The notes: generated from the letters alone by a model not told the origin. A DNA stretch of 36,606 nucleotides from a virus (IMGVR_UViG_3300020122_000603:1-36606), one strand, 5' to 3'. Numbered from the stretch's first letter, positions 12,779 through 28,852 are shown. Program-made: numbers and translations.

Positions 12779-13029
12779 AGGAACTCTCGAAACTTCACGC
12801 CCTGGGCCTGGGCCTCCTCGGCTTCGGTTTGGGAGAGGACTTTGAAGTTTACGTGGCCTTTTTCCGCGATCGCGAATCTCACGCCTTTGGGAAAGAACCT
12901 ATCAGCCCAGTGGTAATCAGGCTGCGGCCCCACTGCCGGATCGTATTCGACGAGGACCATGTCCCCGGGCGCGAGGTCCTCGGCCCGAATCACTTTCAGC
13001 TCGAGCTTCGATAGGTCGACGACGCTCAT
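12775..13029 (-). CDS. Unknown small protein of the minus-strand island
   Basis: An 85-aa protein starting at ATG 13029, which overlaps the stop codon of the gene before it (ATGA). It looks like a compact beta-rich domain: DLAPGDMVLVEYDP near residues 20-33, then a helical C-terminus. The convergent virion gene overlaps its end by 4 bp. An extended start at 13068 lacks support. No family recognised. Confidence 0.55.
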   Translation of the reverse strand: MSVVDLSKLELKVIRAEDLAPGDMVLVEYDPAVGPQPDYHWADRFFPKGVRFAIAEKGHVNFKVLSQTEAEEAQAQGVKFREFL

Positions 13030-13406
13030 TTTCCCAACTTCTCCTTCTGTACTAGCTTGGCGCGCCAATCAAAATCACAATCTGTTTCGTCGAGCGGTCT
13101 GCGCCAATTGTCTTGGTCTTTCCACGCATATACCCACGGCGCGTTCTCGACCTCCTCCTTGATCGCTAGGAGCGAAGCTTCCAACTTTGCATGCTCCGCT
13201 TCCAGCTCCTTAATCCTACTGCGCAGGTTGATGTTCGCGATGGGCGTTATCGCTGAACCGCACTCAAAGCATTTGTAAGCCAGTACGCCATTTTCCCACT
13301 CCGCAATCCCCGCCTCCAGCTCGCGGATGATGCGGCAGAGGCGCTGTTCCTTCGGGCGCCCCATCGCCTCCGCGTCCTCCACAAACTTCTTGTCGTCGTC
13401 CGTCAC
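13026..13406 (-). CDS. Coiled-coil protein with a CxxC pair
   Basis: A 126-aa protein. The GTG start at 13406 overlaps the stop codon of the gene upstream, and the region before it in this frame is a low-complexity antisense reading. Residues about 20-40 and 60-90 are coiled-coil-like; between them is YKCFECGSAI, a CxxC that could bind zinc in a dimer. It is the second of three coupled leftward genes. Unknown function. Confidence 0.55.
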   Translation of the reverse strand: MTDDDKKFVEDAEAMGRPKEQRLCRIIRELEAGIAEWENGVLAYKCFECGSAITPIANINLRSRIKELEAEHAKLEASLLAIKEEVENAPWVYAWKDQDNWRRPLDETDCDFDWRAKLVQKEKLGK

Positions 13407-13621
13407 TGCACCGTCTCCGCGGGCTCGAGATACGCATACTCGCCGCACCAGCCATCCGCTCTCGCCGGCGCTTGCGCGCCTTGAAAGTTCATCGCCGGCC
13501 GCCCGAGCGTATCCTGTCCCATGACGAGAAAGACCTGGGGCGGTTTCGCGCGGCACCAGCCGTTTCCGGCCTCGCCTTCCTTCAGCCAAAACCGGCAATT
13601 CTTGCAGGCCTGCTTTTCCAT
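13403..13621 (-). CDS. Small cysteine-motif phage protein
   Basis: A 72-aa protein starting at ATG 13621 with GGAGGG three bases upstream. The pattern CKNCRFWL...GWCRAKPPQVFLV...ADGWCGEY gives four conserved cysteines. It matches a small putative zinc-binding protein type that is common in temperate phages and has no established activity. It is the first gene of the leftward island and is divergent from the acetyltransferase gene; the shared 53-bp gap contains one of the repeated C-rich boxes. Confidence 0.7.
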   Translation of the reverse strand: MEKQACKNCRFWLKEGEAGNGWCRAKPPQVFLVMGQDTLGRPAMNFQGAQAPARADGWCGEYAYLEPAETVQ

Positions 13622-13635
13622 CCACCCTCCGACGG

Positions 13636-13660
13636 GCTCCCCCCAATTTAGGGTAGGTAG
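13636..13660 (+). repeat. Intergenic C-rich/AATTTAGGG box, copy A
   Basis: CTCCCCCCAATTTAGGG followed by TAGGTAG lies in the divergent gap before the acetyltransferase gene. In this copy GGCTCC (13635-13640) can pair with GGAGCC (13660-13665), which would fold the ribosome-binding AGGAG into a hairpin. Copies B (15971), C (18305) and D (28837) sit at three other gene boundaries. Confidence 0.7.
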
Positions 13661-13674
13661 GAGCCGAAGTTTTT

Positions 13675-14127
13675 ATGCCTGAGTTGGAAACCCAAGATCT
13701 CGTTTTCCGCCCTTACACACCCGAAGATCGCCCTTTCATTGAGTCCTCCTGGGCGAGCTCTTACTATTCCGCGCAAAGAATCAAAGACTTCCTCTCGCCT
13801 GAGACGTTTCACTTTTTCCATCGGCCGCTGAGAGAACGCTTCTTCAACCGCCCGACCGCAACCGTCATTGTGGTCGCCGCCGGGGAGAACCCGGACGTCA
13901 TTCTGGGCTGGATTGCCGTCGAGTGTATCCCCAACGCCACCGTCATCCACTACCTCTACGTCAAAGCCGACTACCGGCGAAAGTTTGATCTCGCAAACCA
14001 GCTTCTGATACGCGGCGTCCCCGCGGGCAACGTGCTCTATACCCATTTTACGCCCAAAGCCGGAAAAATCATGGCCGCTAACCCCGGCCGCTTCCGCCGG
14101 TTCAAGTTTTCCCCACACCTTACCTAG
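13675..14127 (+). CDS. GNAT-type acetyltransferase-like protein
   Basis: A 150-aa protein. The N-terminus reads like a GNAT strand and helix (LVFRPYTPEDRPFIESSW), and the middle has ILGWIAVECIPNATVIHYLY followed by a V-x-x-DYRRKFDLANQLL helix, equivalent to the acetyl-CoA-binding strand-loop-helix, although the pyrophosphate-binding R/QxxGxG/A loop is replaced by RRKFDLA. Similar proteins lie next to the terminase in many podoviruses. Substrate unknown. It follows box A and has AGGAG upstream with a long spacing. Confidence 0.65.
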   Translation: MPELETQDLVFRPYTPEDRPFIESSWASSYYSAQRIKDFLSPETFHFFHRPLRERFFNRPTATVIVVAAGENPDVILGWIAVECIPNATVIHYLYVKADYRRKFDLANQLLIRGVPAGNVLYTHFTPKAGKIMAANPGRFRRFKFSPHLT

Positions 14128-14136
14128 GAGCCGAAA

Positions 14137-14472
14137 ATGAACGTCAATATCAATGGCAGGCGCATCGAGTATTTCCGAACCACGATCTCCCCGCCCATCG
14201 GTCCCATGCCGAAAAACAGCTTCTCGGTCACCGAGAAGGGACACGAGAAGTGGGAGATGGCGATGACGCCGGCCGGGATCTACGTGAAAGCTTTCTACCA
14301 GATGCCCGGCGACAGAAAACCGGACAAGCACGAGTTCGTCGTGCCCTACGCCAATGTGTCGGTCATCAAGTTCCTCTCCGAGAAAGCCGTTGCCGAGCTC
14401 GAGGCCAAGGAAAAAGCCGAGCTCGAAGCGAAAGAAAAGGCGGAAGCCGAGGCCAAAAAGAAAGCGGCGTAG
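14137..14472 (+). CDS. Unknown protein with a Lys/Glu repeat tail
   Basis: A 111-aa protein with AGGAG six bases before the ATG. Residues 1-80 form a small beta-rich domain; the last 30 residues are a repetitive helix (AELEAKEKAELEAKEKAEAEAKKKAA built from 9- to 10-residue units, quoted here in part as KAELEAKE). It lies between the acetyltransferase and the large terminase, the usual place for a small terminase, but shows no DNA-binding motif. Function unknown. Confidence 0.6.
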   Translation: MNVNINGRRIEYFRTTISPPIGPMPKNSFSVTEKGHEKWEMAMTPAGIYVKAFYQMPGDRKPDKHEFVVPYANVSVIKFLSEKAVAELEAKEKAELEAKEKAEAEAKKKAA

Positions 14473-14478
14473 TTCCGT

Positions 14479-15969
14479 GTGGTGCTACCGGAAAAAATTC
14501 CGCGTTCGCTTGTGATCGAGGAGTTGGCCCGCCGAAACCTCGAAGCCAGAGCTCCCGTCCCTGACATCCTGGAAGGCACGTTCTTCGAGCAAGCGGATTT
14601 CATTCTCGATCCCGCGCGCCTCAAGGCCCTTTTCTGCACGAGGCGCGCGGCCAAGTCCTACACCGGCGGCCTTTATCTAATCCGTGAAGCGCTCGAAAAC
14701 GCCGGCTGCAATTGCCTTTTCATCGGGAAAACCCGGGGATCTGCCGAAGGCATCATCTGGAAGGACATCCTAAAGAAGATCGATTCAGACTTCGGGCTTG
14801 GGATCACCTTCAACGAGAGTAAGCTCACCGCCACCCTTCCCAATGGCTCGGTTATCTACGTCACCGGCGCTGACGCCGACGAAGACGAGATGACCAAGCT
14901 TTTGGGCAAGAAATACCGGCTCATCATCATAGACGAATCCGCCGAGTATTCGATCGATCAGCGTCGCCTCGTGTACGGAATTTTGAAGCCAGGGACAGCC
15001 GACTGGCGCGGCACTATCTGCATGCTGGGGACCGCGGGCAACGCAACGCACACCCTCTTTTACGACATCACAAAGCTCCCAACTGATGACAATCCTCGGG
15101 AACAGGGCTGGTCCGTTCACCAGTGGACAGCGTTTCAAAATCCGTACGTCGCGCAGCAATGGCAGGAGGAGCTTGATGAGATTGAGCGGCTTCGCCCCCT
15201 GTTCAAGCTCACCGCCCTTTACTGTCAGTGGTACCTCAATGAGTGGGTAGTCGATGACGATGCGCTCGTCTATAAATATAGCCCGATTCTGAATAGCGCC
15301 CCGTTCCTCCCACGAGAGCTTTCGGAGTGGCGCTACCTTCTCGGGCTTGATCTCGCTCATTCGCCGGACTTTACGACGTTTGTCATCGGTGCCTGGCACC
15401 CGGCAGATCCCAATCTCTATATTGTCTCCGCGGAACAGTGCGAGAAATTCGATTTCACCGCCACCGCGCAAAAGATCAAAGAACTCGAGACCCATTTCTC
15501 GTTCGACGTAAAAGTGGTGGACGGAGCGAATAAACAGGGCGTGGCCGAGATGAATAACCGCCATGGAAGTGGTCTCATTGTCGCCGAAAAGCACGGGAAA
15601 GTGGAGTACATCAATCTTTTCAACGGCGAATTGGTGCAAGGCAAGATCAAGCTTCTGCCTTTGGCAAAGCCCTTGGGCGAGCAGATGAAGGCTTTGGTCT
15701 GGGTGACCGAGGGCGGAAAAATAGTCGAGCCCCGAGAAGAACATCAAGGCATGCACAACGATCTTTGCGATGCGGCACTTTATCTGTGGCGTTACGCCTA
15801 CACCTACCTCTTTGTCGGGCCGAAAAAGAAAACGACCGCCGAAGAGCAGGCCGCCTGGGAGAAAGCCCACATCCAAAAACTGGAAGATCAGGCCCGCCGC
15901 GAGCAAGCCGAGAAAAACCCGGACTTTGCCCCGCCCTTGGAATGGGATCCCGCCTGGGATCCGGAATAG
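14479..15969 (+). CDS. terL: Large terminase subunit
   Basis: A 496-aa DNA-packaging motor. The ATPase has a Walker A-like CTRRAAKSY (K59, S60) and Walker B LIIIDE (D152, E153). The RNase H-like nuclease domain has D291 in LLGLDLAHS, D348 in VVDGANKQG, and HNDLCDA near 426-432. The motor pumps DNA through the portal and cuts it. The start is GTG 14479 or 14482 with no clear Shine-Dalgarno site, so it may depend on the gene before it. Two bases after its stop codon lies box B. Packaging type (headful or cos) cannot be told from the sequence. Confidence 0.93.
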   Translation: MVLPEKIPRSLVIEELARRNLEARAPVPDILEGTFFEQADFILDPARLKALFCTRRAAKSYTGGLYLIREALENAGCNCLFIGKTRGSAEGIIWKDILKKIDSDFGLGITFNESKLTATLPNGSVIYVTGADADEDEMTKLLGKKYRLIIIDESAEYSIDQRRLVYGILKPGTADWRGTICMLGTAGNATHTLFYDITKLPTDDNPREQGWSVHQWTAFQNPYVAQQWQEELDEIERLRPLFKLTALYCQWYLNEWVVDDDALVYKYSPILNSAPFLPRELSEWRYLLGLDLAHSPDFTTFVIGAWHPADPNLYIVSAEQCEKFDFTATAQKIKELETHFSFDVKVVDGANKQGVAEMNNRHGSGLIVAEKHGKVEYINLFNGELVQGKIKLLPLAKPLGEQMKALVWVTEGGKIVEPREEHQGMHNDLCDAALYLWRYAYTYLFVGPKKKTTAEEQAAWEKAHIQKLEDQARREQAEKNPDFAPPLEWDPAWDPE

Positions 15970-15970
15970 C

Positions 15971-15993
15971 GCTCCCCCCAATTTAGGGTAGGT
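15971..15993 (+). repeat. Intergenic C-rich/AATTTAGGG box, copy B
   Basis: The box fills the space between the terminase stop codon and the GTG start at 15994. Copies A, B and C share 23 identical bases, from GCTCCCCCC to GGGTAGGT; B and C share 26 (extended by AGC on the left). AGGG inside the box may serve as the ribosome-binding site. Confidence 0.75.
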
Positions 15994-16395
15994 GTGAGCC
16001 CGAAAGATTTGAAAGAGCTCCTGCCGCACCTACGGCGCGCGCGCGTCGCCCACTTGAAGCTTGAGGGGCTCGAGCTCTCCTTTCACGCAAGCCCGCGAAA
16101 GAAAAAGAAGATCGCAAATCGCGATTCGCGAACTGCGGTTTCTGCGGCTCCTCCTGCCCCAGGCCCCATTGGAAACCCCACTTACCCCATCCCCGGCACG
16201 CTTCCGCAAGAGAGCTCGTTCCCCACCGAGAAAGTGGCGGATGTCGTTCTGCCCCAGGGCTTAGAGGAAGAGATCCCAAACGACAAGGTCCTGATGTGGT
16301 CAGTCCCGGGCGAAGACCTGGGGAAGACCCCCCTCACCGATGACGAGCCGATTGTCGACGAAGGCACCTTAGCCGAGGGCCGCCCCAATGGCTGA
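15994..16395 (+). CDS. Unknown protein between terminase and portal
   Basis: A 133-aa protein starting at GTG 15994, directly after box B. The N-terminal 35 residues are helical and basic; the middle is Pro-rich; the C-terminal third is acidic and contains DKVLMWSVPG, a short motif often found in small proteins encoded just before podovirus portals. It overlaps the portal gene by 8 bp. Function unknown; a connector or packaging accessory would fit its place. Confidence 0.55.
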   Translation: MSPKDLKELLPHLRRARVAHLKLEGLELSFHASPRKKKKIANRDSRTAVSAAPPAPGPIGNPTYPIPGTLPQESSFPTEKVADVVLPQGLEEEIPNDKVLMWSVPGEDLGKTPLTDDEPIVDEGTLAEGRPNG

Positions 16396-18301
16396 GCAAC
16401 CGAAAAGCCTATCCGCCTCTGACTTCACGGAAAGGGGCAAAAAGCCCCCGCAACCCAAGGAACTACCGCCGCAAACGCGCTGGTGGCTTGCCGAGAAAAA
16501 GAATTTGGCGGCCGCCGTCATGGGCCAGGTCGGCGCCATCATCAAGGCCGATAGAGGCAGCATCGATTCCTATAACACCTACGCGAAACTCTACGGGATC
16601 TACACGCCGACTTTTTGGAACGGCTACCAGCTTGCGAACTCCGGAAAACCCACGGCCCCCATGCGCGACCGGCTCACCTACAACATCTGCCAAAGCTGCG
16701 TCGACACCCTCACTTCCACCGTCACCCAGAATAAGCCAAAGCCCATGTTTCTCACCTCCGCGGGAGATTCTAGGACGCAGAGGAAAGCGCGAAAGCTCGA
16801 TGCCTTCTGCTACGGGCTTTTTTACGAAAACGACATCCACTCCAAAAAGGGCCCGAAAAGTTTCAGGGACAGCGGTGTTTTCGGCGAGGGCATCATCCAT
16901 GCTTTTGCGCAAAACGGGAAAGTCAGATACGAGCGCGTCTTCCCCTACGAGCTCCTGGTCGACTATCTGGAATCTCACTACGGCGAGGAATCGACTCTCT
17001 CGCTTTATCGCATCAAAAACATCGATCGCACGGAGCTGATGGAGAGCTTCCCCGAGCGGGCTGCGCAAATTGCGGTCATGCAGAATACCTCCCAGTTCAT
17101 CTCCGCCGCGAACCGCTCGGTCGGCGATACCTTGACCGTGATCGAAGCCTGGCGCTTGCCGGTGGGCAATAAGCCCGGCCGCCACTGCATCGTCGGCGCC
17201 AACGACTGGATCGAAGATGAGGACTACGAGGATAACTTTTTCCCATTTGCGGTGATGCGTTATTGTCCCAGGCTCTACGGCTTTTACGCCCAGGGCATGG
17301 TCGAGCAGTTGGTCCCCGTCCAGATGGAGATCAACCGCACGCTGATTTCCATCCAGCGGTCGCTCTACTTGGGCGGCACGCACAAGATTTTCGTCAAAGC
17401 CGGCAGCAAGGTCATCAAGTCCCACTTCGACAATCTCATTGGCACCATCCTCGAGTACGCCGGCGACACGGCCCCCCAGTACGTCGTGCCCCAATTGGTC
17501 CAGCCCGAAATTTACGCGCACCTCCAAAGCATGGTCGGGATGGGCTACCAGCTCCCCGGCGTCTCCCAGATGCAGGCGACCGCGATGAAGTCTCCCGGCG
17601 TGAATAGCGGCCGCGCCATGCGCACGGAGGCCAATATCCACTCCCAGAGGTTTTCCTCCGTCGGCGACGGCTACGCGCAGTCCTACGTGGACTTGGCCCG
17701 GATCACGGTGTCAGTGGCCCGAAAAGCCTACGCCCAGGACAAATCGCTCAGCGTCAAAGTGCCCGGGCGGCGCTTCATCCAGAAAATCGATTGGAAAGAG
17801 GTCGATCTCGAAAACGACGAGTTTGTACTCCAGATTTACCCGGTCAGTAAGCTCCCCACCGATCCGGAAGGGCGCTTGGCCGCCATTCAGGAAATGATGG
17901 AGGGCGGCCTCATCACCCCCGAAGTCGGCAGGCGCCTTCTCGACTACCCCGATCTCGATGCGGAGGAGAATCTCGGGAATGCCACTCAGGACTACCTGCA
18001 TAAAATCTTGGACGACATGGTCGAGGATGGAAAATTCACCCCGCCCGAGCCCTACGACAATCTCCAAAAAGCTCAGGAGCTTGCGCTCGAATACTACGCT
18101 CAGGGGAAGCTCAATAATTTGGCCGAAAATCGTCTCGAGCTCCTTCGGCGTTTCATGGCGCAAATCGATTTTTTGAATAGGCAGGCGAACCCGGCCCCCG
18201 TGCTCCCGCAGCAACCGCCGGCACCGGTGCCCCAGGCGAAGCCCGCCCCGCAGCCGGTATCGGATCTCATTCCGAATGTCGCCGGGCCGGTGGTCGCATG
18301 A
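16388..18301 (+). CDS. Portal protein
   Basis: A 637-aa protein forming the dodecameric portal through which DNA enters and leaves the head. Features seen: helical N-terminal clip/wing region, the tract TYNICQSCVDTLTSTVTQNKPKP (cut: YNICQSCVDTLTSTVTQ) at about residues 97-120 typical of podovirus portals, a central QGMVEQLVPVQMEINRTL helix near 300-317, and a Pro/Gln-rich tail. Length lies between T7 (536) and P22 (725) portals. It follows the terminase and precedes the scaffold, as in most podoviruses. The start overlaps the upstream gene. Confidence 0.88.
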   Translation: MAEQPKSLSASDFTERGKKPPQPKELPPQTRWWLAEKKNLAAAVMGQVGAIIKADRGSIDSYNTYAKLYGIYTPTFWNGYQLANSGKPTAPMRDRLTYNICQSCVDTLTSTVTQNKPKPMFLTSAGDSRTQRKARKLDAFCYGLFYENDIHSKKGPKSFRDSGVFGEGIIHAFAQNGKVRYERVFPYELLVDYLESHYGEESTLSLYRIKNIDRTELMESFPERAAQIAVMQNTSQFISAANRSVGDTLTVIEAWRLPVGNKPGRHCIVGANDWIEDEDYEDNFFPFAVMRYCPRLYGFYAQGMVEQLVPVQMEINRTLISIQRSLYLGGTHKIFVKAGSKVIKSHFDNLIGTILEYAGDTAPQYVVPQLVQPEIYAHLQSMVGMGYQLPGVSQMQATAMKSPGVNSGRAMRTEANIHSQRFSSVGDGYAQSYVDLARITVSVARKAYAQDKSLSVKVPGRRFIQKIDWKEVDLENDEFVLQIYPVSKLPTDPEGRLAAIQEMMEGGLITPEVGRRLLDYPDLDAEENLGNATQDYLHKILDDMVEDGKFTPPEPYDNLQKAQELALEYYAQGKLNNLAENRLELLRRFMAQIDFLNRQANPAPVLPQQPPAPVPQAKPAPQPVSDLIPNVAGPVVA

Positions 18302-18304
18302 AGC

Positions 18305-18329
18305 GCTCCCCCCAATTTAGGGTAGGTAG
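18305..18329 (+). repeat. Intergenic C-rich/AATTTAGGG box, copy C
   Basis: The box begins 4 bp after the portal stop codon and ends 3 bp before the scaffold ATG, so it is essentially the entire gap. It is identical to copy A over 25 bases and to copy B over 26 in slightly different windows. Confidence 0.75.
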
Positions 18330-18332
18330 AAC

Positions 18333-19307
18333 ATGGCTGATCTGATTCCCAATACGCCTCTCTCCCCAAACACCCCCCCGGGGCCGGCACCACAGGCTCC
18401 GGGGGGCGGTAAAGCCGCCCCCCCGCCCACGGCGGCTCCTCCGGACAGCAAGGAAGCGGCTCCCGGCGCACCGGAGGCCCCCTCCGAGCCCAAAGTCTCC
18501 CCCAAGCTTCAGACGCTGATTAGGCGGGAGGCGAAAGCCCTGGAAAGAGAGAAGCAGGCCAAGACCCAAGAGGAAGCCATCAAGGCGCGCGAGCAGGCCA
18601 TCGAAGCTCGTGAAGCAAAAATGAAGGAATTTGAGTCGATCCGGGCAACAAATCCCAGGAAGGCGCTCGAGCTTCTGGGGATGAGTTACCAGGACTTGAC
18701 CATGGCGGAGCTCAACGACGGGCAGGCCACCCCCGAGCAACACGTGAAAACGCTCGAGCAACGCCTCGAGGCCGAGATCAAAGCGCGCGAAGACGAAAAG
18801 CGCCAGGCCGCGGAGGAGTCGAAAAAGTCGGCCGAGCACGAGGAGCGAAAAGCCATTGAACAGGTCCACGAGAGGATCGCGGGTTTCGTCGGAGAGAATA
18901 ACGAAAAGTACGAGCTCATCAACTTCGAGGGTGCCGCCAACCCCAATAAACAATCGGGCATCTTCAATCTGATCTACAAGGTCATCGACGCGCACTACCT
19001 GCGCACGATGGATAAAGAGACCGGCATCGGCAAGATGATGTCGATTCCGGAGGCCTGCGACAAGGTCGAGGCCTGGCTCACTGCCCGCTATGAAAAGGCC
19101 CTGGGCCTTAAAAAGTTTTCTTCCCGGGTGGCTCCTCCTAAGGAGCTGCCGAAGCAGCCGAATAACCATGGCCAAAAGCCGCCGGCCAAAACGCTGACCA
19201 ACACCATGTCTGGCAATTCCAGCGCTCCCCCCACGAGAATCCTCACCGACGAAGAGCGCATCCAAAAAGCGATCGCCTTAGGGCGAACGTTTCTGCAGGC
19301 GAGATAA
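18333..19307 (+). CDS. Capsid scaffolding protein
   Basis: A 324-aa protein. Residues 1-55 are Pro/Ala/Gly-rich; about 60-205 are long charged helices with coiled-coil character (ALEREKQAKTQEEAIKAREQ and similar); a smaller folded part and a basic C-terminal segment follow. This layout and the position between portal and major capsid gene are typical of assembly scaffolds that are lost or cleaved as the head matures. No protease domain is apparent. Confidence 0.8.
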   Translation: MADLIPNTPLSPNTPPGPAPQAPGGGKAAPPPTAAPPDSKEAAPGAPEAPSEPKVSPKLQTLIRREAKALEREKQAKTQEEAIKAREQAIEAREAKMKEFESIRATNPRKALELLGMSYQDLTMAELNDGQATPEQHVKTLEQRLEAEIKAREDEKRQAAEESKKSAEHEERKAIEQVHERIAGFVGENNEKYELINFEGAANPNKQSGIFNLIYKVIDAHYLRTMDKETGIGKMMSIPEACDKVEAWLTARYEKALGLKKFSSRVAPPKELPKQPNNHGQKPPAKTLTNTMSGNSSAPPTRILTDEERIQKAIALGRTFLQAR

Positions 19308-19398
19308 CTCGCCCGCTTAGCTGTAACCGACCCACGTCGCGAGCTGACGACACAAAACCCAATTCAATTCACGCGCAATTTCGCGCGGAGGAGTTTTT

Positions 19399-20832
19399 GT
19401 GACTAACGTCGCATCTGCGGTCGGTCTTTATAACGAAGGGCAGGGCCAGGCTGCCAACGGACCTTTTACCGCAAATACCTCTGGCCAGCTCGGGATGCAG
19501 GAGATCTCCGGCATCCTGAAACAAATCTATGACGGGCAAAAGCTCGCCATTCTGTACTACCGGAATAACCCCCTCTTCACGCTTCTGAAAAAGAAGGAAG
19601 ACTTCTTCGGCGAGACCTGGCCGCTTCCGACGATCGTCGAAACGCCGACCGGTATCGCCAACGTCTTCGCCAACGCTCAGTTGCCGAACCAATTGATCAA
19701 CGGCGGCTCGGGCACCGGCGGTAACCAGGGCCCGGCCAAGTTCGTCAAATTCATGCTGACGCGTGCTTCGGCCTACGGCGTTCACATCATCGATCGCCAG
19801 GCGATGCTCGCGGCCTCCCAGAACATCGGCTCTTTCGTCAACGGCCAGATGGCCCAGATGGACGCCATGATCCAGGGGGTCACGAACCTCATCTCCCAAC
19901 AGCTCTATCGCTCGGGCTCGGGCTCTATCGGCCAGATCTCGACGATTGGATCGGTGGGAACCGGAATCGTGCAGTTGGTCAACCCGACCGATGCGCGCTA
20001 CTTCACGGTCGGCCAGGTCGTGATTGCGACTTCCGTCGATCCGACGCCCGGCTCCAACCCCACGCAGCGCGCGGGCTTTGGACTGGTCACCGCGATTAAC
20101 CGCTCGGCGGGTCAGGTGACTTTCGGAAACGCGGCCGCGGCGAACCCGCAGACGGCAGCGAACCCGTCCGCCTGGGCGGCGAACGACTTTCTGGCCATCA
20201 ACGGAACGTCGCCGCTCAATGGTCCCGCCATCTCCAGCAACCAGATCCCGGTGGCTTTGACTGGTCTTGCGGCGTGGCTGCAGAACCCGGCCAACGTCTC
20301 GGGCTCCGATGTCTTCTTCGGTGTCAACCGAAGCTCGGACACCTGGAGGCTCGCCGGCGGTTTCTACGACGGAAGCCAGAACGGGCAATCCGTCGAGGAA
20401 GCGCTCTACGACGCGTCGACCGCGCTCTTCATGGAAGGGGGTTACCCCTCCCATTGCTTCGTGGGACCGAACGCGTATGCCGCGCTCCAAAAATCCATGG
20501 CCTCTCGCAATATCTTCGAGACCCAGATCGATGGGCCTCGGGATGAGGCGGGCAATGTCCTTGTGTTCTTCAAGGGCATCAAGATCCAGGGCGCGGGCTC
20601 TGAGTTCATGGTCATCGCGGACAGAAACTGCCCGCCCTTCGCGGCGTATCTGCTGACGCTTGAGGACTGGGCTCTGTACTCGCTCAAAGCCGCTCCTCAC
20701 GTTGTCGACGACGATGGAGTTTCGTTCCTTCGTCGGACCGATAGCGATGCCTTCGAATTCCGTTTGGCCGCGTACGGGCAGCTCGGCTGCCAGGCGCCCG
20801 GCCATTCAATGCTCGTGAAGCTGTCGATCTAA
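19399..20832 (+). CDS. Major capsid protein
   Basis: A 477-aa protein, position and length typical of a podovirus coat protein. GTG 19399 is the start, with GGAGGAG five bases upstream, one of the strongest sites in the genome and expected for the most abundant protein. Residues about 195-275 look like an inserted beta-rich domain (ARYFTVGQVVIATSV, GLVTAINRSAGQVTF) within an alpha/beta shell-forming fold. The 91-bp leader before it (19308-19398) has no box but contains short GC-rich inverted repeats. Confidence 0.85.
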   Translation: MTNVASAVGLYNEGQGQAANGPFTANTSGQLGMQEISGILKQIYDGQKLAILYYRNNPLFTLLKKKEDFFGETWPLPTIVETPTGIANVFANAQLPNQLINGGSGTGGNQGPAKFVKFMLTRASAYGVHIIDRQAMLAASQNIGSFVNGQMAQMDAMIQGVTNLISQQLYRSGSGSIGQISTIGSVGTGIVQLVNPTDARYFTVGQVVIATSVDPTPGSNPTQRAGFGLVTAINRSAGQVTFGNAAAANPQTAANPSAWAANDFLAINGTSPLNGPAISSNQIPVALTGLAAWLQNPANVSGSDVFFGVNRSSDTWRLAGGFYDGSQNGQSVEEALYDASTALFMEGGYPSHCFVGPNAYAALQKSMASRNIFETQIDGPRDEAGNVLVFFKGIKIQGAGSEFMVIADRNCPPFAAYLLTLEDWALYSLKAAPHVVDDDGVSFLRRTDSDAFEFRLAAYGQLGCQAPGHSMLVKLSI

Positions 20833-20884
20833 TTGGTCGCAGCGATCTCTCTTCTGATTCGGAGCTGGGCATCTCCCTAAACTG

Positions 20885-20946
20885 CCCACCCTACCGGGTG
20901 GGGGCATCCGGAATCTAGGGAAAACCGCCCTGCCGAGTTTTCTCGG
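20885..20946 (+). promoter_or_regulatory. Two hairpins after the capsid gene
   Basis: CCCACCC (20885-20891) pairs with GGGTGGG (20896-20902) around a TACC loop, and CCGAG (20933-20937) pairs with CTCGG (20942-20946) around TTTT. Neither has a following T-tract. They lie in the 135-bp gap between the capsid gene and the next structural gene. They may protect the capsid message or cause partial termination, which would keep downstream expression lower. Confidence 0.5.
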
Positions 20947-20967
20947 TATAGCTCAAGGAGTCTTTCC

Positions 20968-21645
20968 ATGAACCGCGTCGTTCGTCCTGTCCAATTCGCG
21001 TTTGAGCCCGATGTCGTTTCGATCTTTGCCCGAATGACTTTCGGTGCTTCGGGGGCTGTGACCCTCGATACCGCAAACTCCAAGGGGATCTGCAACGTGT
21101 CCTTGGCGACCTTTGCCTTCACCGGCACGACCGCGAACGCCTCGCCCACGATTTCGGCCGTCAACACTTTCAAAAACCTCTACCCCGGAATGACGGTTCA
21201 GGACGCAGGTCCCACGAACGTCAATAGGACCATCTCTTCGATGAACGCCGGCGCGAGTACCATCACCATGAGCGGCAACGCCACCGGCACGAACACGGGT
21301 CTTACCGCCTTTGGCGGCGTCTACACGGTCCAGTTCGGCCAACAGGCCGCGGTCAGGCTCGATACCTACAACAAGCTTCTCTACATGGACGCGCAGTGGG
21401 ACGAGTCGGGCTCCCAGGGCGGTGCCTCCACTTTGGCGCTTGGCCCCGGAAACCCCGTCATCACGGTAGTCCAGAACAACATCACGACCCGAACGATTCC
21501 GCCGACGGCGGCCTCTGTTCTCACGGATGCGACCATCAACATCGCCTTTGGCACGGGCTCGGGAACGAGCTTCACCGTGAGCGCCCCCCAAAACGGCGAA
21601 GTCCTGCGGCTTGCGTTCACGTTCTGCCGCTCGGGCGCCATCTAA
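20968..21645 (+). CDS. Virion structural protein, possible head decoration
   Basis: A 225-aa beta-rich protein (many Thr, Ser, Gly, Val, Asn; few charges), following the capsid gene. AAGGAG is upstream with normal spacing. Around residues 70-110 it contains a module beginning YPGMTVQDAG and ending with TITMSGNATG, which also occurs in the connector gene and in the large nozzle gene. The ending is strand-rich (TFCRSGAI). A decoration or head-stabilising role is the best guess. Confidence 0.65.
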   Translation: MNRVVRPVQFAFEPDVVSIFARMTFGASGAVTLDTANSKGICNVSLATFAFTGTTANASPTISAVNTFKNLYPGMTVQDAGPTNVNRTISSMNAGASTITMSGNATGTNTGLTAFGGVYTVQFGQQAAVRLDTYNKLLYMDAQWDESGSQGGASTLALGPGNPVITVVQNNITTRTIPPTAASVLTDATINIAFGTGSGTSFTVSAPQNGEVLRLAFTFCRSGAI

Positions 21646-21656
21646 GGGAGGCCAAA

Positions 21657-21860
21657 ATGCCTAGCGAAATCGACGAAATCCTGGGGCCTGAAGAAAAAGA
21701 CGGCGAGGGGGAGGGGGATGAGACGAACGAGCTCGAGCTCATCTCCCAAGAGCTCATCGAAGCGGTCCATGCGCGAAACACCAAGGATGTCGCCCAAGCG
21801 CTGCGCGCGGCGTTCGCATGCCTAGAGTCCTACGAGCACGAAGAGGGCCCGCAAGAGTAG
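21657..21860 (+). CDS. Small acidic protein in the head module
   Basis: A 67-aa protein starting at ATG 21657 with GGGAGG five bases upstream. The first 25 residues are Glu/Asp/Gly-rich; the rest is an amphipathic helix pair (ISQELIEAVHARNTKDVAQA, ALRAAFACLESYE). Proteins of this size and helix pattern, encoded between the coat and connector genes, are common in phages. Function unknown. Confidence 0.6.
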   Translation: MPSEIDEILGPEEKDGEGEGDETNELELISQELIEAVHARNTKDVAQALRAAFACLESYEHEEGPQE

Positions 21861-21878
21861 CGGGCCCGCGAGGTCCAC

Positions 21879-22856
21879 ATGGCAAATGGTCTGGTCACGC
21901 TTGGATATCTGCGCCTTCAGGCGCAGCAACGCTCCGGGACGGAGAGCAATCCCGCGATCTCGACTTCCGAGTGGAACCAGTACCTTTCTTCTTCCTACAA
22001 GGAGCTCTACGACAAGATCGTCGCGGCTTACGGGAATGACTACTACTTGGCGCTCCCCTATCAGTTCTCACTCACCGGCGCTCAGTTCTATAGCCTCCCC
22101 GATGGCTCGGCGAATTTCCTCATCAGCGGGAACCCGGCGCCGGCGTTCTATAAACTCCTGGGCGTCGATCTCCAGTATTCGTCCTCGCCCACCGGCTGGG
22201 TGACGCTGAGAAACTTCGAGCTCATTGATCGCAACAAATTCTTAGCTCCCAATACGTCGACTAATTATTCAGGCTTCACGAATCTCCGCTACCGTCTCGC
22301 GGGCAGTCAGCTCTGGTTCATTCCGATCCCAGCCTCCGGTCAACAGGCCCGGATCTGGTATGTGCCCGAGCCGACCAATCTCATGTTCGCGCCAAGCTGC
22401 AACACGACCGCGAACAATGCCGTCATCACGGTTTCCGACGCCCAGGGCTTGACCTCCGGTATGTCGGTCTTTGGCACCGGGATCCCGACCGGAACGACCG
22501 TGAGCTCCGTCAATACGTCGAATAACCAGGTGACCCTCTCTGCGCAAGCGACACTCACCCAAACGGCCGCGGTCTGCATGTTCTGGATCGATTCCACGAC
22601 GATGGATGGGATCTCAGGCTGGGAAGAGTACGTCATCATTGATGCCGCGATCAAAGCCTGCACTAAGATGGAATTCGATACGGCTTCGCTGGAAAGAATG
22701 CTCGGCCGCATGACCGCCCGAATCGAGGGCATGGCCGAAGGCCGCGATGCCGGCCAAGCGCATCACGTGTCCGACGCGCTATCGGTCGTGGGCTATGGGA
22801 GCACCGATGGCTTTGACGATGGTTTCGGCGGCATGGGCGGCTTCGGGGGGCTCTAA
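21879..22856 (+). CDS. Head-tail connector (adaptor) protein
   Basis: A 325-aa protein. The N-terminal part has the pattern of podovirus adaptors of the P22 gp4 type: SEWNQYLSSSYKELYDKI followed by AYGNDYYL and a strand-rich FYKLLGVDL segment. Around residues 190-225 it carries an inserted module starting SGMSVFGTGIPTGTTV, shared with two other virion proteins. The C-terminus is helical and then Gly-rich. GAGG lies five bases before the ATG. It should join the portal to the nozzle. Confidence 0.7.
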   Translation: MANGLVTLGYLRLQAQQRSGTESNPAISTSEWNQYLSSSYKELYDKIVAAYGNDYYLALPYQFSLTGAQFYSLPDGSANFLISGNPAPAFYKLLGVDLQYSSSPTGWVTLRNFELIDRNKFLAPNTSTNYSGFTNLRYRLAGSQLWFIPIPASGQQARIWYVPEPTNLMFAPSCNTTANNAVITVSDAQGLTSGMSVFGTGIPTGTTVSSVNTSNNQVTLSAQATLTQTAAVCMFWIDSTTMDGISGWEEYVIIDAAIKACTKMEFDTASLERMLGRMTARIEGMAEGRDAGQAHHVSDALSVVGYGSTDGFDDGFGGMGGFGGL

Positions 22857-23707
22857 TGAATCAGGGCCTACTCCCAACCTTCCCCATTCAGGACCACGAG
22901 GTCTCGCTCCTGCAAACGCAGTGGAAAAAAGCGCTCGATCCGCTTTTGAAAACCGCATCGCCCGCGCAACAGAGCCTGCCCACTCGAAGTCTTACGCTTC
23001 AAACGAATAATCAACTTCAGCTCTCCGACTACGTCCTTTTTTGCAACGCCTCGAGCGCCTTGACGCTGGTCCTTCCGAACACCGCGCCGGCCGGAAAGCA
23101 GTACGTCCTTGAGAAAACCGATTCCACCTTCAATCTGGTCACGATCGTCTCCCAGGGGAACGCGCAGATTGCCTTCGGCAAAAGCACTACGCTCGCGACT
23201 CAGGGCGAGACGCTGACCATCGTCTACGACGGCACGAACTGGCAGGTCCTCTCCCGAATTATTCCGGCCAACCTCACGGCCTACACCCCGACTTTTACCG
23301 GATTTGGGACCGTCTCCGCGGTATCGGCTATGTGGTGGCGGGATAGTACCGGCTTGGGGATCAAGGGCTTTTGGACTTGCGGCACTTCTACGGCCGTGAC
23401 CGCCAAAATCAGTTTGCCCAGTGGACTGACCTTGGATGGCGCCCGCCTAATAGGAAACCAAAAAGAAAAAGTTGGAACGCTGGATCGTGGCCTCAATGCT
23501 GTCTCGACAGGTTACCCGGGGAGCACCGTCGGACCATTTGCGTTAGTGACTTCGATCGGAACGGACGCCGCCGCACTTTTTATATCTGCGCAAACCAATA
23601 GTACCGCCCCCCTTTACATTGCCAACACTGGCACGGCGTTTAGTGCCTCGGGCGACAACTTCGCATTCAAGGCGAGCGGGCTCCCCATCACGGGCTGGAA
23701 GAACTGA
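22856..23707 (+). CDS. Tail fibre or spike protein
   Basis: A 283-aa protein whose ATG overlaps the stop codon of the connector gene (TAATG). It is beta-rich throughout. Residues about 40-130 hold repeating strands of the type seen in fibre shafts (YVLFCNASSALTLVLPN). The ending NFAFKASGLPITGW is typical of trimeric tail-fibre tips in many podophages and siphophages. Probably a receptor-binding protein or its anchor. It has no enzyme motif. Confidence 0.7.
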   Translation: MNQGLLPTFPIQDHEVSLLQTQWKKALDPLLKTASPAQQSLPTRSLTLQTNNQLQLSDYVLFCNASSALTLVLPNTAPAGKQYVLEKTDSTFNLVTIVSQGNAQIAFGKSTTLATQGETLTIVYDGTNWQVLSRIIPANLTAYTPTFTGFGTVSAVSAMWWRDSTGLGIKGFWTCGTSTAVTAKISLPSGLTLDGARLIGNQKEKVGTLDRGLNAVSTGYPGSTVGPFALVTSIGTDAAALFISAQTNSTAPLYIANTGTAFSASGDNFAFKASGLPITGWKN

Positions 23708-23718
23708 AAGGAAGCTTT

Positions 23719-24216
23719 GTGGAAAAGATCTATCTCGTTTGTGGAGTCGCAGCGTGTGGGAAAAGCTGGGCGTGCCGGCAGGCGGCGGAACGCTTCCACT
23801 ACATCCCGCACGATAGGTGCTGGGTGATGCCAGGCTCTCGAGGCTGGGATCCGGGGCTCGCGGCCGCGGCGGACACTCAAGATCACTCGGCCTGGGCGCC
23901 GGGAGCGAAGAGCAATCATCTTGAGGTCCTCCTCGAAGCCGCGAAGATTGCCGAAAAACCCGTTCTCACCGAGTGCCCCTTCGCCGAACGCGTCTTAAGA
24001 GACGCCTTAGAGGCCCGCGGAATCGAAGTCATCCCGATTTTTGTCGTCGAAAAACCCTCCGTCTGCGCCACGAGATACCTGCGCCGGGAGGGAAAGCCCA
24101 TTCCCCAGGCAGCAAGGACGCGCGCCGCGACGATCGGCGATCGCGCCAAAGAATGGGGCGCTTTTTCCGGAACCAGCGACGAAGTCTTGGCTCATTTGAA
24201 GGAGATCCCACTATGA
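23719..24216 (+). CDS. P-loop kinase-like protein in the tail module
   Basis: A 165-aa protein with a Walker A motif at the very start (CGVAACGKSW; K15, S16), an acidic strand end in LTECPFAE, and an arginine-rich stretch (ATRYLRREGKPIPQAARTR) that may be a lid. It resembles small AAA_33/zeta-type nucleotide or polynucleotide kinases. Being placed between two fibre genes is unusual for a soluble kinase, which marks it as an added gene. GTG start with AAAGGA upstream. Substrate unknown; it could modify a small molecule, nucleic acid or protein. Confidence 0.6.
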   Translation: MEKIYLVCGVAACGKSWACRQAAERFHYIPHDRCWVMPGSRGWDPGLAAAADTQDHSAWAPGAKSNHLEVLLEAAKIAEKPVLTECPFAERVLRDALEARGIEVIPIFVVEKPSVCATRYLRREGKPIPQAARTRAATIGDRAKEWGAFSGTSDEVLAHLKEIPL

Positions 24217-25328
24217 AACTATTCATCCGCCTTCTTTTTCTGACCCTTTGGCTATTGGCCCCCAAGGCCGCGGCCGAGAACTACACGCTCTCGCCGAATA
24301 TGAGCCTCCCCGTCCCCATCATCGGAGTGGAAACGGGCCCCAACTACGCGACCGACATCAATAACGCCCTGGGGCTTTTGGATAGCCACAACCACACCTT
24401 TGGCCAGGGCGTTCAGATTCCAAGCTCGGGCCTCAACATCAATGCCGATCTGACCTACGGCGGAAACAACGCGACATCCCTTCGGGCCTGCCGCTACTCC
24501 TCGCAGACCTCGCCCATCACGGCGACCGCGCCCGACCTCTACGAGACATACGTCTCGGGCGTGGATCTCTATTACAACGACGGGAACGGCAACCAGGTCA
24601 GGCTCACCCAAAGCGGCGCCGTCGCCGGAACCCCGGGCAGTATCTCGGGCCTGGCTTCGCCCGCCACCGCTTCCTACAGCGCGGGCTCTACGACCTTTGT
24701 CTGGCAATCGGCCGCGAACACGCCGGCCAACATGGATTTTGAGTCAGCCATCCTCCGAAACAACGCCGCAAACTCCAAAGGGCTCACCCTTTCACCGCCG
24801 AACTCCATGGGATCTAACTTCACGATCACCCTGCCCTCGCTCCCGGCCTCTACTTCCGTGCTTACCATCACGAACGCCGGCGCCATGAACGCGACCCTCT
24901 CCCCCACTCTGACCACGATCCCCATGACGAGCGGCCCTACCCAACAGGTCTACGCCACGAACACCCTCGGCGTATCGAATAGCGGAACCGATCGGCCGGT
25001 CGTGGTTTCCGGTGGAGCTCCGACCAATGGGCTCTTGATCGTGAGAGGAGGGGGGTTAACAACCCCATCGGGAGCTAGCTGCGGAACACCAATCGGAGAG
25101 GGATACTCTTGCACGAGAACCTCGACCGGGCTTTATGCGATCACATTCTCTGTTGCATTTCCGGATAACCCCGTTTGCACCTGCGTAGACAACACTAACT
25201 CGCCTCGAATTTGCTCTATTGGCACTGGATCTTCATCACTGAACCTAACCTTGGCAACCACTGCCGGGGCGGCAATAGACGAGGCCTTTTCATTCATCTG
25301 CATCGGCCAACGGCCAGCGGGGTCGTGA
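24213..25328 (+). CDS. Tail fibre protein with an apparent signal peptide
   Basis: A 371-aa protein whose ATG overlaps the kinase stop codon (ATGA), with AAGGAG eight bases upstream. It begins with a textbook Sec signal (MKLFIRLLFLTLWLLAPKAAA, basic then hydrophobic, cut after AAA, quoted here as KLFIRLLFLTLWLLAPKAA), which is strange for a virion protein. After it comes a common fibre pattern: LPVPIIGVETGPNYATDINN then LLDSHNHTFGQGVQIPSSGL. The rest is Ser/Thr/Ala/Gly-rich shaft-like sequence with six cysteines in the last 100 residues. Fibre identity is supported; the export signal needs explanation. Confidence 0.7.
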   Translation: MKLFIRLLFLTLWLLAPKAAAENYTLSPNMSLPVPIIGVETGPNYATDINNALGLLDSHNHTFGQGVQIPSSGLNINADLTYGGNNATSLRACRYSSQTSPITATAPDLYETYVSGVDLYYNDGNGNQVRLTQSGAVAGTPGSISGLASPATASYSAGSTTFVWQSAANTPANMDFESAILRNNAANSKGLTLSPPNSMGSNFTITLPSLPASTSVLTITNAGAMNATLSPTLTTIPMTSGPTQQVYATNTLGVSNSGTDRPVVVSGGAPTNGLLIVRGGGLTTPSGASCGTPIGEGYSCTRTSTGLYAITFSVAFPDNPVCTCVDNTNSPRICSIGTGSSSLNLTLATTAGAAIDEAFSFICIGQRPAGS

Positions 25329-28300
25329 ATGCCGCTCGCGAAGGAAACAATTTCGATTTCTTTTGCCCAGGGCAGGGACGCGAAGACCGATCCTTGGCAC
25401 GTCCCCATCGGGAAATTCCTTCAGCTTTACAACTCTGTCTTTAATAAGACCGGCCGGCTCACGAAAAGAAACGGCAATAAGCAGCTCGCGACCCTTTCCG
25501 CAAGCTTCAACACCGTGCTGCTTGCGACGTATCAAGGGGGGCTCCTCGCGATTGGAAATGTCATCAATGCCTACGCCCAAACCTCGCAGAGCTGGGTGAA
25601 TAAGGGCTCTTATCTTCCGCTTTCGCTCTCGGTCCAGTCTCTCGTGCGCTCGTCGGCGACCCAAAACCAGTGCGATGTAGCCGCGACTTCTTCCGGGCAA
25701 ACCTGCGTCGCCTATACGGAGGCTCAGGGCGCCGTCACCTCCTACAAGTACGCGATTTTCGATCCCTCAGGCGCTTGCGTTGCGGGACCTACGGCTATTG
25801 TCCCCGGCGCCGGCGGCACGGTGAACGGTGCGCCGCGGGTTTTTCTCCTGGGCGCCTATTTCATCATCGTTTTTTCAGCGACCATTTCCGCGACCGAGCA
25901 TCTTCAGTACGTCGCCATTCCGACGGCGAATCCGACCTCCCCCGGAACGGCGACCGATATTTCCACGGTCTATACCCAAGCGTCGACCGTCTCTTGGGAT
26001 GGAGTTGTCGCGAATAACAACCTCTATATTGCTTGGAACGCGACGGCCGCGGGGATCAAGATGATGTACCTGGATCCCACGCTCACCGCCCACTCCACGG
26101 TGACTCCCGATGCGAGCCACCAATGCACAATGATGTCGGTCTGTGCGGACATCACGGGGAATACGCCGGTCATTTGGGTCACTTACTATAACTCCTCGGG
26201 AACGATCGGCTATACCTTTGCGGTCAATCAGGCAATGACGACGATTCTCGCAGCCGTTGAGATTTTTTCGACGGGAACGCTCTTGAACCTGGCGACGGTG
26301 GCGCAAAACCAGACGTTGACCGTATACTACGAGGTCTCGAACAACTACGGCTACGACTCGACCCTCGCCTCGAACTACATCCAGACCGTCCAGGTCCCTC
26401 AGGCCGGCCTTCCGACGATGACGGTCACCATTGCTTCGCCGGCAGTCTTCACGGTGGCGTCGACGGCGGGCCTTTCGGTCGGGCAGCCCATCTTTTTTAC
26501 GACGTCCGGAGCTCTGCCTACGGGACTGACCGCCGGCACGGTGTATTTCATCTCGGCAATCGTCTCAGGAACCACTTTCAACGTGAGCACAACGAACCCG
26601 AACACCACTTCGGGGGGCACGAACGTCAATACGAGCGGGACTCAGAGCGGGACGCATTCCTACGTTGCGTCTTCCATTCTCGTTCGCGGGATGGGTTTGG
26701 CGTCCAAGGCGTTCTTACAAAATAGCGTGCCCTATTTTCTCGGAACCTACAGCTCGACGAATCAACCCACCTATTTTCTGATGAATGGTTCGGGCAAGGT
26801 CCAGGGGAAGCTCGCTTATCTCAATGGCGGGGGCTACCTCACGACCGGGCTTCCCTCCGCGGTTCTGACCGGCTCCAAAGTGACGATCGGATACCTTTTC
26901 AAGGATCTCATCCAGCCGGTGAACCGAACGCAAGGCGCCGCGAGCTCGGCCGCGGTCTACACGCAAACCGGCATCAATGCGGCAACGTTCAATTTCTCAG
27001 CAATCCCAACGACGGCTGAGATTGGAGGCGCCCTTCATCTCTCGGGGGGCCAGCTTTGGATGTACGACGGAACCCAAGTCGTCGAGCATGGGTTTCATCT
27101 CTTCCCGGACAACGTAGAAGCGGTTTGGAGTGCCGCGACCTTCACGACTACAGCCACGCCGACCACTGGAAGCGCCGTTTTGACCTCCGTCGGGAGCACC
27201 GCCGGCGTTGCGGCCGGCATGGCCGTCACCGGAACCGGGATCCCGGCCAGCACTACCGTCGTTTCTTTCACCGCGAATACGATCACGATGAGCGCGCTCG
27301 CCACGAGCTCGCCCGGTTCCATTACCATCACCCTCAGTGTCGCCGGGAGCATCAAAGCGCAGCCGGATAGCCTGACGAACACGAATGCCTACGCCTATCA
27401 GGTCATTTATTCCTGGATGGATGCGCAGGGGAATATTCACAGGTCAAACACTTCGCTCCCGATTTTTGTGACCACGACCGGCGCAGGTTCCACGGGAGCC
27501 ATTACGCTCAATTTCCCAAGCCTTCGCTCGACATTGAAGACGCTCGTTAAGATCGACATCTTCCGCTGGTCGGTCGCCCAGCAAGCCTATTTCCAGGTGA
27601 CGAGCATCACGTCTCCGACCATGAACACGACGACGGCTGATTCGATTTCCTACGTCGATACTCTAGCGGACACCTCGATCGTTGGGAATGCGCCGCTGTA
27701 CACCGGGGGGAACGTCCTGGGCGATGATGCCGCGCCGGCGACGAATCTCTTGGCCCTTTTCGATAGCCGCCTTTGGCTTGTGGACGCGGAAGATCCAAAT
27801 CTTCTCTGGTTCTCGAAAGAGGTCGATGTCGGCTCTCCCGTGGAGCTCTCCGAAAACCTCACCAAGTGGATTTCGCCGACCTTGGGCGCCCAGGGCAATA
27901 CCGGAAACATCTCCATGATGGCGCCGATGGACGACAAGATGATCCTCTTTAAGGCGAATGCGGCGATCTATTTCTTCAACGGGCTCGGGCCCGATCTGAC
28001 TGGCGCGCAGAACCAATACAGCCAGCCCATTTTTGTGGCGGCGACGGTGAGCTGTACGAACCCGAACGTGGCACTCATTCCCAGTGGGCTCGTTTTTCAA
28101 TCGGACAAAGGAATCTGGCGGCTCGGTAGAAATCTGATGACGGACTATCTGGGCGCTTCCGTCGAGGATTACAATTCTCAAACCGTCCAGGCCGCACTCA
28201 CGATCCCGGGAACCAACCAGGTCCGCTTCAACATGTCGGGCGGCCAACAGCTGATGTACGACTATTTCGAAGAACAGTGGGGAGTCTTCCAGGGCGTCAA

Positions 28301-28832
28301 AGCCGGGAGCTCGGTTCTCTTTCAAAGCCTCCAAACGTCCATCGATACCTACGGCCGGGTCTTTCAGGAGAATCCGGGAAGCTATCTCGATGGGGCAAAC
28401 CCGGTGCTCATGTCGTTCACGACGGGCTGGATTACTCCCGCGGGTCTGCAAGGGTACCAACGCGCTTACTGGGCCTTTCTCCTCGGACAGTACCTCTCTC
28501 CGCACAAGCTCACGGTCGGAATTGCCTACGACTACAACCCCTCGATTGCGCAACAGGTCACCATCGCGCCCGACAATTACGTTCCGAATTGGGGCGGTGA
28601 TTCGAAATGGGGGTCAGGGACTGCCTGGGGAGGTCCTGGGAACCTTGAGCAGTGGCAGATCAACTTCAAGCAGCAAACCTGCGAGGCTTTTCAGCTGACC
28701 GTGAACGAACTTTTCGATTCGACCAAGGGACAGGCCGCCGGCGCCGGGCTCACATTGAGTGGGCTCGATCTCGTCGTCGGACTCAGCAAGAAATACCCGA
28801 AAAAACTTCCGGCAACGCGAATGACGGGCTGA
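25329..28832 (+). CDS. Large tail nozzle-type protein
   Basis: A 1,167-aa protein. The N-terminus (AQGRDAKTDPWHVPIGKFLQ, NSVFNKTGRLTKRNG) matches the start of large podovirus tail proteins in the place of T7 gp12 or P22 gp10, which form the nozzle through which DNA passes. It contains two kinds of inserted beta modules: one near residue 385 with TGLTAGTVYFISAIVSGTTF and one near 630 with AGMAVTGTGIPASTTV. Composition is Thr/Ser/Ala-rich with few charges. The ATG follows the fibre stop codon directly (TGAATG). Confidence 0.75.
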   Translation: MPLAKETISISFAQGRDAKTDPWHVPIGKFLQLYNSVFNKTGRLTKRNGNKQLATLSASFNTVLLATYQGGLLAIGNVINAYAQTSQSWVNKGSYLPLSLSVQSLVRSSATQNQCDVAATSSGQTCVAYTEAQGAVTSYKYAIFDPSGACVAGPTAIVPGAGGTVNGAPRVFLLGAYFIIVFSATISATEHLQYVAIPTANPTSPGTATDISTVYTQASTVSWDGVVANNNLYIAWNATAAGIKMMYLDPTLTAHSTVTPDASHQCTMMSVCADITGNTPVIWVTYYNSSGTIGYTFAVNQAMTTILAAVEIFSTGTLLNLATVAQNQTLTVYYEVSNNYGYDSTLASNYIQTVQVPQAGLPTMTVTIASPAVFTVASTAGLSVGQPIFFTTSGALPTGLTAGTVYFISAIVSGTTFNVSTTNPNTTSGGTNVNTSGTQSGTHSYVASSILVRGMGLASKAFLQNSVPYFLGTYSSTNQPTYFLMNGSGKVQGKLAYLNGGGYLTTGLPSAVLTGSKVTIGYLFKDLIQPVNRTQGAASSAAVYTQTGINAATFNFSAIPTTAEIGGALHLSGGQLWMYDGTQVVEHGFHLFPDNVEAVWSAATFTTTATPTTGSAVLTSVGSTAGVAAGMAVTGTGIPASTTVVSFTANTITMSALATSSPGSITITLSVAGSIKAQPDSLTNTNAYAYQVIYSWMDAQGNIHRSNTSLPIFVTTTGAGSTGAITLNFPSLRSTLKTLVKIDIFRWSVAQQAYFQVTSITSPTMNTTTADSISYVDTLADTSIVGNAPLYTGGNVLGDDAAPATNLLALFDSRLWLVDAEDPNLLWFSKEVDVGSPVELSENLTKWISPTLGAQGNTGNISMMAPMDDKMILFKANAAIYFFNGLGPDLTGAQNQYSQPIFVAATVSCTNPNVALIPSGLVFQSDKGIWRLGRNLMTDYLGASVEDYNSQTVQAALTIPGTNQVRFNMSGGQQLMYDYFEEQWGVFQGVKAGSSVLFQSLQTSIDTYGRVFQENPGSYLDGANPVLMSFTTGWITPAGLQGYQRAYWAFLLGQYLSPHKLTVGIAYDYNPSIAQQVTIAPDNYVPNWGGDSKWGSGTAWGGPGNLEQWQINFKQQTCEAFQLTVNELFDSTKGQAAGAGLTLSGLDLVVGLSKKYPKKLPATRMTG

Positions 28833-28836
28833 ATGG

Positions 28837-28852
28837 TCCCCCCAATTTAGGG
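28837..28852 (+). repeat. Intergenic C-rich/AATTTAGGG box, copy D
   Basis: TCCCCCCAATTTAGGG begins 4 bp after the nozzle stop codon and is followed by AGTATAGAT and the ATG of the first ejection-type gene. It shares the 16-base core with copies A-C, but the right side differs (AGTATAG instead of TAGGT). AGGGAG provides a ribosome-binding site here. Confidence 0.7.

Follow-up and report, generated by a model that had tools for sequence, protein, structure and literature searches.

The 16-nt sequence TCCCCCCAATTTAGGG is present in exactly four copies, all of them on the plus strand, in a viral genome record of 36,606 bases (IMGVR_UViG_3300020122_000603), the whole of which is referred to as the window. 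These copies, termed boxes, would probably, if by no means securely, be single-element late promoters giving leaderless or short-leader transcripts. A phage-encoded specificity factor would bind the box and make RNA polymerase initiate within a few bases 3' of it, either on the start codon or just ahead of it, with near boxes yielding leaderless or nearly leaderless mRNAs and distant boxes a short leader containing a Shine-Dalgarno site. The first copy would open the virion operon, and the other three would serve for re-initiation ahead of the pre-portal gene, the scaffold gene, and the gene starting at 28862. The specificity factor would be the small helix-turn-helix (HTH) protein encoded at 10971-11351. 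From the sequences we infer that the boxes bind something, that transcription starts at them, and that the HTH protein reads them.

The four boxes occupy the following positions.

13638-13653, plus strand: box copy 1, exact 16-mer within a shared stretch at 13636-13660, 21 nt 5' of the ATG at 13675
15973-15988, plus strand: box copy 2, exact 16-mer between the terminase stop codon and the pre-portal start codon, 5 nt 5' of the GTG at 15994
18307-18322, plus strand: box copy 3, exact 16-mer between the portal stop codon and the scaffold start codon, 10 nt 5' of the ATG at 18333
28837-28852, plus strand: box copy 4, exact 16-mer between the gene for a 1,167-amino acid protein and the gene at 28862, 9 nt 5' of the ATG at 28862

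The positions of the four cores and their location before start codons, both reported in the first-pass annotation of this DNA, are thereby confirmed, as is its claim that three copies share at least 23 bases: copies 1 to 3 have 23, 25, and 26 contiguous bases in common pairwise, the 26 being those of copies 2 and 3, and copy 4 has only the 16-base core in common with them. No fifth copy is found in the window at up to 3 mismatches, the early region included; in shuffled sequences the mean number of matches at this tolerance is 0.41, and 0 of 100 shuffles reach four. All four boxes are intergenic. The description of the boxes as following stop codons holds for copies 2 to 4, which start 3, 5, and 4 nt past the stop codon; copy 1 follows no plus-strand gene and lies in a 53-bp gap (13622-13674) at a divergent junction, with a Shine-Dalgarno site (GGAG) between box and ATG. 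The ATGA coupling ascribed to the rest of the genome is found in part, the capsid gene and the gene at 20968 having ordinary gaps with Shine-Dalgarno sites.

The genes around the boxes are listed below.

12775-13621, minus strand: block of minus-strand genes according to the gene calls, which parts the HTH gene and two further plus-strand genes from box 1
13403-13621, minus strand: gene bordering the gap of copy 1, its 5' end facing the acetyltransferase-like gene
13675-14127, plus strand: acetyltransferase-like gene opening the virion operon (PF00583, GNAT, E = 0.0022, below cut-off); homologues adjoin the terminase gene in relatives
15994-16395, plus strand: pre-portal gene, 3' of box 2, named from its position; weak homologues lie ahead of the portal gene in some relatives
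18333-19307, plus strand: scaffold gene, 3' of box 3, assigned by its position between the portal (phrog_156) and capsid genes; homologues occur in relatives
28862-30190, plus strand: gene 3' of box 4, called ejection-type from its position only, with no family match; homologues occur in relatives

The names carried over from the first-pass annotation are to be read accordingly, that is, acetyltransferase as a weak match below cut-off, and scaffold and ejection-type gene as labels given by position, the latter after a predicted all-beta protein.

Since a block of opposite-strand genes lies upstream of the virion operon, transcription of the latter should begin in the divergent gap, which holds copy 1, unless it reads through the whole block. 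Opposite-strand genes that part the HTH gene from the acetyltransferase gene are found in three phages, namely, the window and its relatives G002 and L182; a repeated box was not detected in G002. Plus-strand sigma70-like sites (-35 and -10 hexamers at a spacing of 16-18 nt) are present neither in the divergent gap nor at any box, in agreement with the first-pass annotation, and a scan of 8.6 kb for such sites returned two weak ones, which is no more than in shuffles.

Searches with the terminase, portal, and capsid proteins yielded syntenic relatives among viral contigs and one relative in a bacterial bin; among cultured phages, terminase matches are partial and below 60% identity, and a portal match was not obtained. 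It had been proposed that related phages be searched for the same box, with unrelated gap sequences counting against it. This objection applies to the letters, which differ from those of the window, whose word is absent from the relatives' boundaries, but not to the substance, as several relatives repeat a box of their own at the same boundaries. The acetyltransferase, pre-portal, and scaffold boundaries carry CCAGACAGCGCCCCC in L048 and RACATCAATTTGGCTT in G003, there with one mismatch at the pre-portal gene. In G006, GTCCTCAAATCATACTTT stands at the acetyltransferase and pre-portal boundaries, and the pre-portal and scaffold boundaries share TTAGCCCCRATTYAGA in L034, AGCACATYTGACCT in L177, TAGCAACAAWCTAGT in L172, and CAYCTAACACGCCCCA in L183. 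A weaker pair, TAGCACCAWTT, is seen at the acetyltransferase and pre-portal boundaries of L182. All same-boundary copies in the relatives are on the plus strand; an equivalent of copy 4 was not seen at its boundary in the relatives examined.

These three boundaries were compared in 17 phages, including the window, by best ungapped match, with those pre-portal starts that had been missed by the automatic gene calls in some phages placed by hand from the sequence. A score of at least 11 was reached by 14 of 37 within-phage pairs, which come from eight phages (the window among them), and by 0 of 619 between-phage pairs at different boundaries; as the cut-off of 11 was picked after the data had been seen and pairs inside one phage are not independent, these counts are a description and not an exact probability. 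An own spelling in each phage at the same boundaries is the pattern expected of sites for one rapidly changing recognition protein, and it would follow, as we propose, from site and factor changing together. L034 and L182 have pre-portal elements that are visibly alike (TAGCNCC..TTT.G.TCCTATGTG), and this degenerate pattern matches just these two contigs in the viral collection. Their likeness indicates that at least some of the words share an ancestral element and drift, with the copies in one genome staying alike. Across the viral collection, 40 stretches contain the 15-mer of L048, and only the contig of L048 itself has it more than once.

The same data bear on the boxes as recombination linkers, which had been suggested in the first-pass annotation, or as a recent duplication devoid of a regulatory role. 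Near identity of the copies within a genome and their location at module boundaries would suit this explanation; however, letters that are not common to phages at different boundaries cannot guide exchange among them, and the same boundaries recur across phages in constant orientation. In addition, the 16-mer of the window occurs in four of 2.9 million viral contigs, once in each, and in these stretches no window proteins are encoded. A site of exchange between phages is, thus, unsupported, and a linker or duplication of any kind appears to us hardly credible.

A further line of evidence is the relation between the distance of the box from the start codon and the presence of a Shine-Dalgarno site, defined as pairing at -4 kcal/mol or stronger. 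Such a site is found in 0 of 14 cases with the box at most 8 nt from the start codon and in 6 of 8 cases with the box at least 9 nt away, the limits of 8 nt and -4 kcal/mol having been chosen after seeing the data. The pre-portal entry of the window was placed at copy 1 owing to the shared prefix; its value of -3.9 agrees with a separate calculation. At boxed starts outside the window, median pairing is +0.2 kcal/mol versus -5.6 kcal/mol at the other starts of G003, G006, and L034 (p = 7e-6), a weakness that is partly due to the lack of room for a Shine-Dalgarno site. Since the near-box genes do not possess such a site, their translation must proceed without one, as for leaderless mRNAs. The boxes take up the space left from stop to start codon, and within several phages the spacing between box and start is constant, with 5/5/5 nt in G003, 2/2 in G006, 6/6 in L034, and 6/6 in L177.

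Nearness to the start, constant spacing in several phages, and a position that is often the usual place of the Shine-Dalgarno site would also be compatible with a translation element comparable to the start-associated sequence (SAS) of cluster K mycobacteriophages, which is placed alike (PMC3203893); a factor or the ribosome would then read the box in the mRNA by the start codon. This is an alternative that we consider unlikely. Window copy 1 and the scaffold boxes of L172 and L183 are 20-25 nt away from the start codon with a normal Shine-Dalgarno site between, and at 38969 of G003 a box copy with 2 mismatches lies where a gene ends, and a hairpin separates it from the gene start at 39034. 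Both observations speak against the box being, in itself, a signal for translation. Moreover, the boxes have no common RNA fold, and transcription over the divergent gap would be left unexplained.

An RNA-level site on a polycistronic late mRNA, cleaved by a ribonuclease or recognized by an RNA-binding protein, could be envisaged for copies 2 to 4, which are situated between co-directional genes. Copy 1, however, is at a divergent junction and not within an evident operon, and the fold is neither conserved nor unusual, the folding z-scores of copies 1 to 4 being -0.37, -1.35, +1.70, and +0.45; an Rfam search gave no match. The CCC/GGG stem of an RNA or translational operator, put forward in the first-pass annotation, finds no support in these values, and we regard an RNA-level function as very improbable.

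If the boxes are late promoters, the reader would most likely be the following protein, as far as position and fold allow such an assignment.

10971-11351, plus strand: 126-amino acid HTH protein, candidate box reader, with HTH matches; its homologues are encoded just upstream of the operon

Homologues in this location were found at 38 loci, in which duplicates of the same contigs are included, and the stop codon of the HTH gene is immediately followed by the first box in G003 and G006. The structural model (predicted local distance difference test, pLDDT, 84) contains a C-terminal HTH of the kind seen in LuxR or sigma region 4, all matches being weak. Identity among the HTH proteins of eight phages is 27-47%, and similar boxes are seen in few phages; for the capsid protein, close relatives show 74-78% identity to the window, with L048 being more distant (34% capsid match). 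Small regulators often outpace capsid proteins in divergence. For this reason, and because of the distance of L048, the contrast between HTH and capsid divergence is suggestive only. An N-terminal CxxGH...CxxC, zinc-ribbon-like, is present in the HTH homologues of L033, L039, L182, L183, and L184 and is not found in the protein of the window.

An HTH protein in a phage that encodes an integrase could act as repressor; the boxes would then be operators or roadblocks comparable to the stoperators of phage L5 and would keep the virion genes silent in the prophage. Stoperators are asymmetric and have one orientation to transcription (PMC9283540), as have the boxes in their short gaps, and their words, too, vary among related phages (PMC6550527). 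L5, however, possesses more than 20 sites, including promoter operators (PMC9283540), compared with four sites here; the early region is free of them even with 3 mismatches allowed. Silencing by roadblocks would, in addition, not account for the promoter from which the divergent virion operon is transcribed, and is judged to be quite improbable.

Summarizing, the phage-specific late promoter, which was among the proposals of the first-pass annotation, is the best supported of them, by the recurrence of boxes in relatives, their phage-specific spelling, the divergent gap, the absence of sigma70-like sites, and the relation between box distance and Shine-Dalgarno site. Several points weigh against it. 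In at least half of the relatives sampled, a repeated box is not detectable. The boxes, which are contiguous and in part GC-rich, as the L048 word shows, lack a common -10-like element. A repressor or a translation factor could also act so close to a start codon. A T7-type single-subunit RNA polymerase (PF00940) is absent from the window and its relatives (T7 positive control, E = 9.9e-110), and sigma region 2 (PF04542) was matched in 0 of 15 records, with detection in 11 of 14 control genomes, although a very divergent sigma factor could escape; this makes the proposed reader a guess from position. Finally, for phage 7-11 a promoter prediction based on repeats (PMC4331800) differed from the word found experimentally (PMC8948821).

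It is conceivable, though doubtful, that these elements constitute a new type of switch, in which an HTH protein of about 120 amino acids devoid of sigma region 2 would act on start-adjacent single-element promoters to give leaderless virion mRNAs, with specificity changing so fast that capsids of about 75% identity go with unrelated words. If the promoter interpretation is true, late promoters of an uncultivated phage group would be readable from the genome sequence alone, with a candidate regulator alongside. Letters that change at nearly constant positions would then be a natural series for the co-change of regulator and site, and the near-start boxes would predict leaderless late mRNAs, which would be unusual for virion genes. 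The approach, that is, searching for within-genome repeats at homology-defined boundaries and then for relatives with other letters, would be applicable to other metagenomic phages.

With regard to the genome as a whole, an exact direct repeat of 127 nt is found at 1-127 and 36480-36606; because it stands at both ends of the record, the latter is, on this evidence, a complete genome that is either circular or terminally redundant. Genes for terminase, portal protein (phrog_156), capsid protein, and integrase were identified, the capsid protein matching the SU10 capsid family weakly. The 1,167-amino acid protein encoded at 25329-28832 is conserved in relatives and has no family match; its low-confidence model (pLDDT 45) is all-beta and would fit a tail nozzle. 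The idea that it is a polymerase was dropped, the model being all-beta but poor. An RNA ligase family gene is located at 6341-7267 on the minus strand (PF09414, E = 3.7e-16) in this small, temperate-looking phage genome. The gene at 35668-36525, with a weak HTH_36 match, contains three copies of CTGGATCAAAATGATCCA at 36118-36258, one of them altered, which encode a repeated LDQNDP and are possibly replication-origin repeats within an initiator gene.

Additional elements were observed in the relatives. At 4001-4113 of L048 there is a fourth box copy with 1 mismatch whose sequence overlaps the HTH gene at its 3' end, and an 11-bp inverted repeat (CCACGGGGCTT..AAGCCCCGTGG) lies between this copy and the acetyltransferase box. 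In L032 (about 2450-2520) and L177 (about 3300-3380), tRNA-like sequences were noticed by eye in the interval that separates the terminase gene from the pre-portal element.

Among known systems, the L5 stoperators resemble the boxes in being asymmetric, oriented with transcription, located in short gaps, and spelled differently in relatives; the boxes differ from them by their low number of four and their restriction to the virion operon, with none early. The SAS elements are likewise asymmetric short repeats just 5' of starts, mostly in one orientation, and most box copies share this placement, some being 20-25 nt away. In cluster K mycobacteriophages the SAS holds AGGAG and is distributed genome-wide, and the part termed extended SAS (ESAS) varies between subclusters (PMC3203893). 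The boxes, in contrast, are confined to the virion operon, and most near-start boxes outside the window have no Shine-Dalgarno site. For the 13-bp SAS word GGGATAGGAGCCC, all matches in the window have 2 mismatches or more, and their count is as in shuffles.

In T7, class III promoters are laid out before the scaffold gene and other virion genes and are read by a single-subunit RNA polymerase. The boxes of the window are similarly contiguous, about 16-26 bp long, and placed before scaffold and other virion genes; unlike T7, no such polymerase is detected in the window or its relatives, and the T7 promoter word has no match within 3 mismatches in the window.

The late promoters of phiEco32 and SU10 (tAATGTAtA, sigma factor gp36) and of phage 7-11 (GTAAtg-(16)-aCTA, sigma factor gp47) differ in their words but occupy similar genome positions; the sigma factors that read them are 15% identical, and in phiEco32 a single element directs transcription from a start 6-8 bp downstream (PMC8948821, PMC4281155). 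Both words are absent from the boxes and have no meaningful match in the window. The window is not assigned to the phiEco32/7-11 group, because the defining sigma factor was sought and not found; no sigma region 2 is detected, and the window boxes are longer and located at or next to the start codon. What the boxes share with phiEco32 and 7-11 is a low-copy repeated element 5' of the late (virion) genes, the words of which vary at similar positions.

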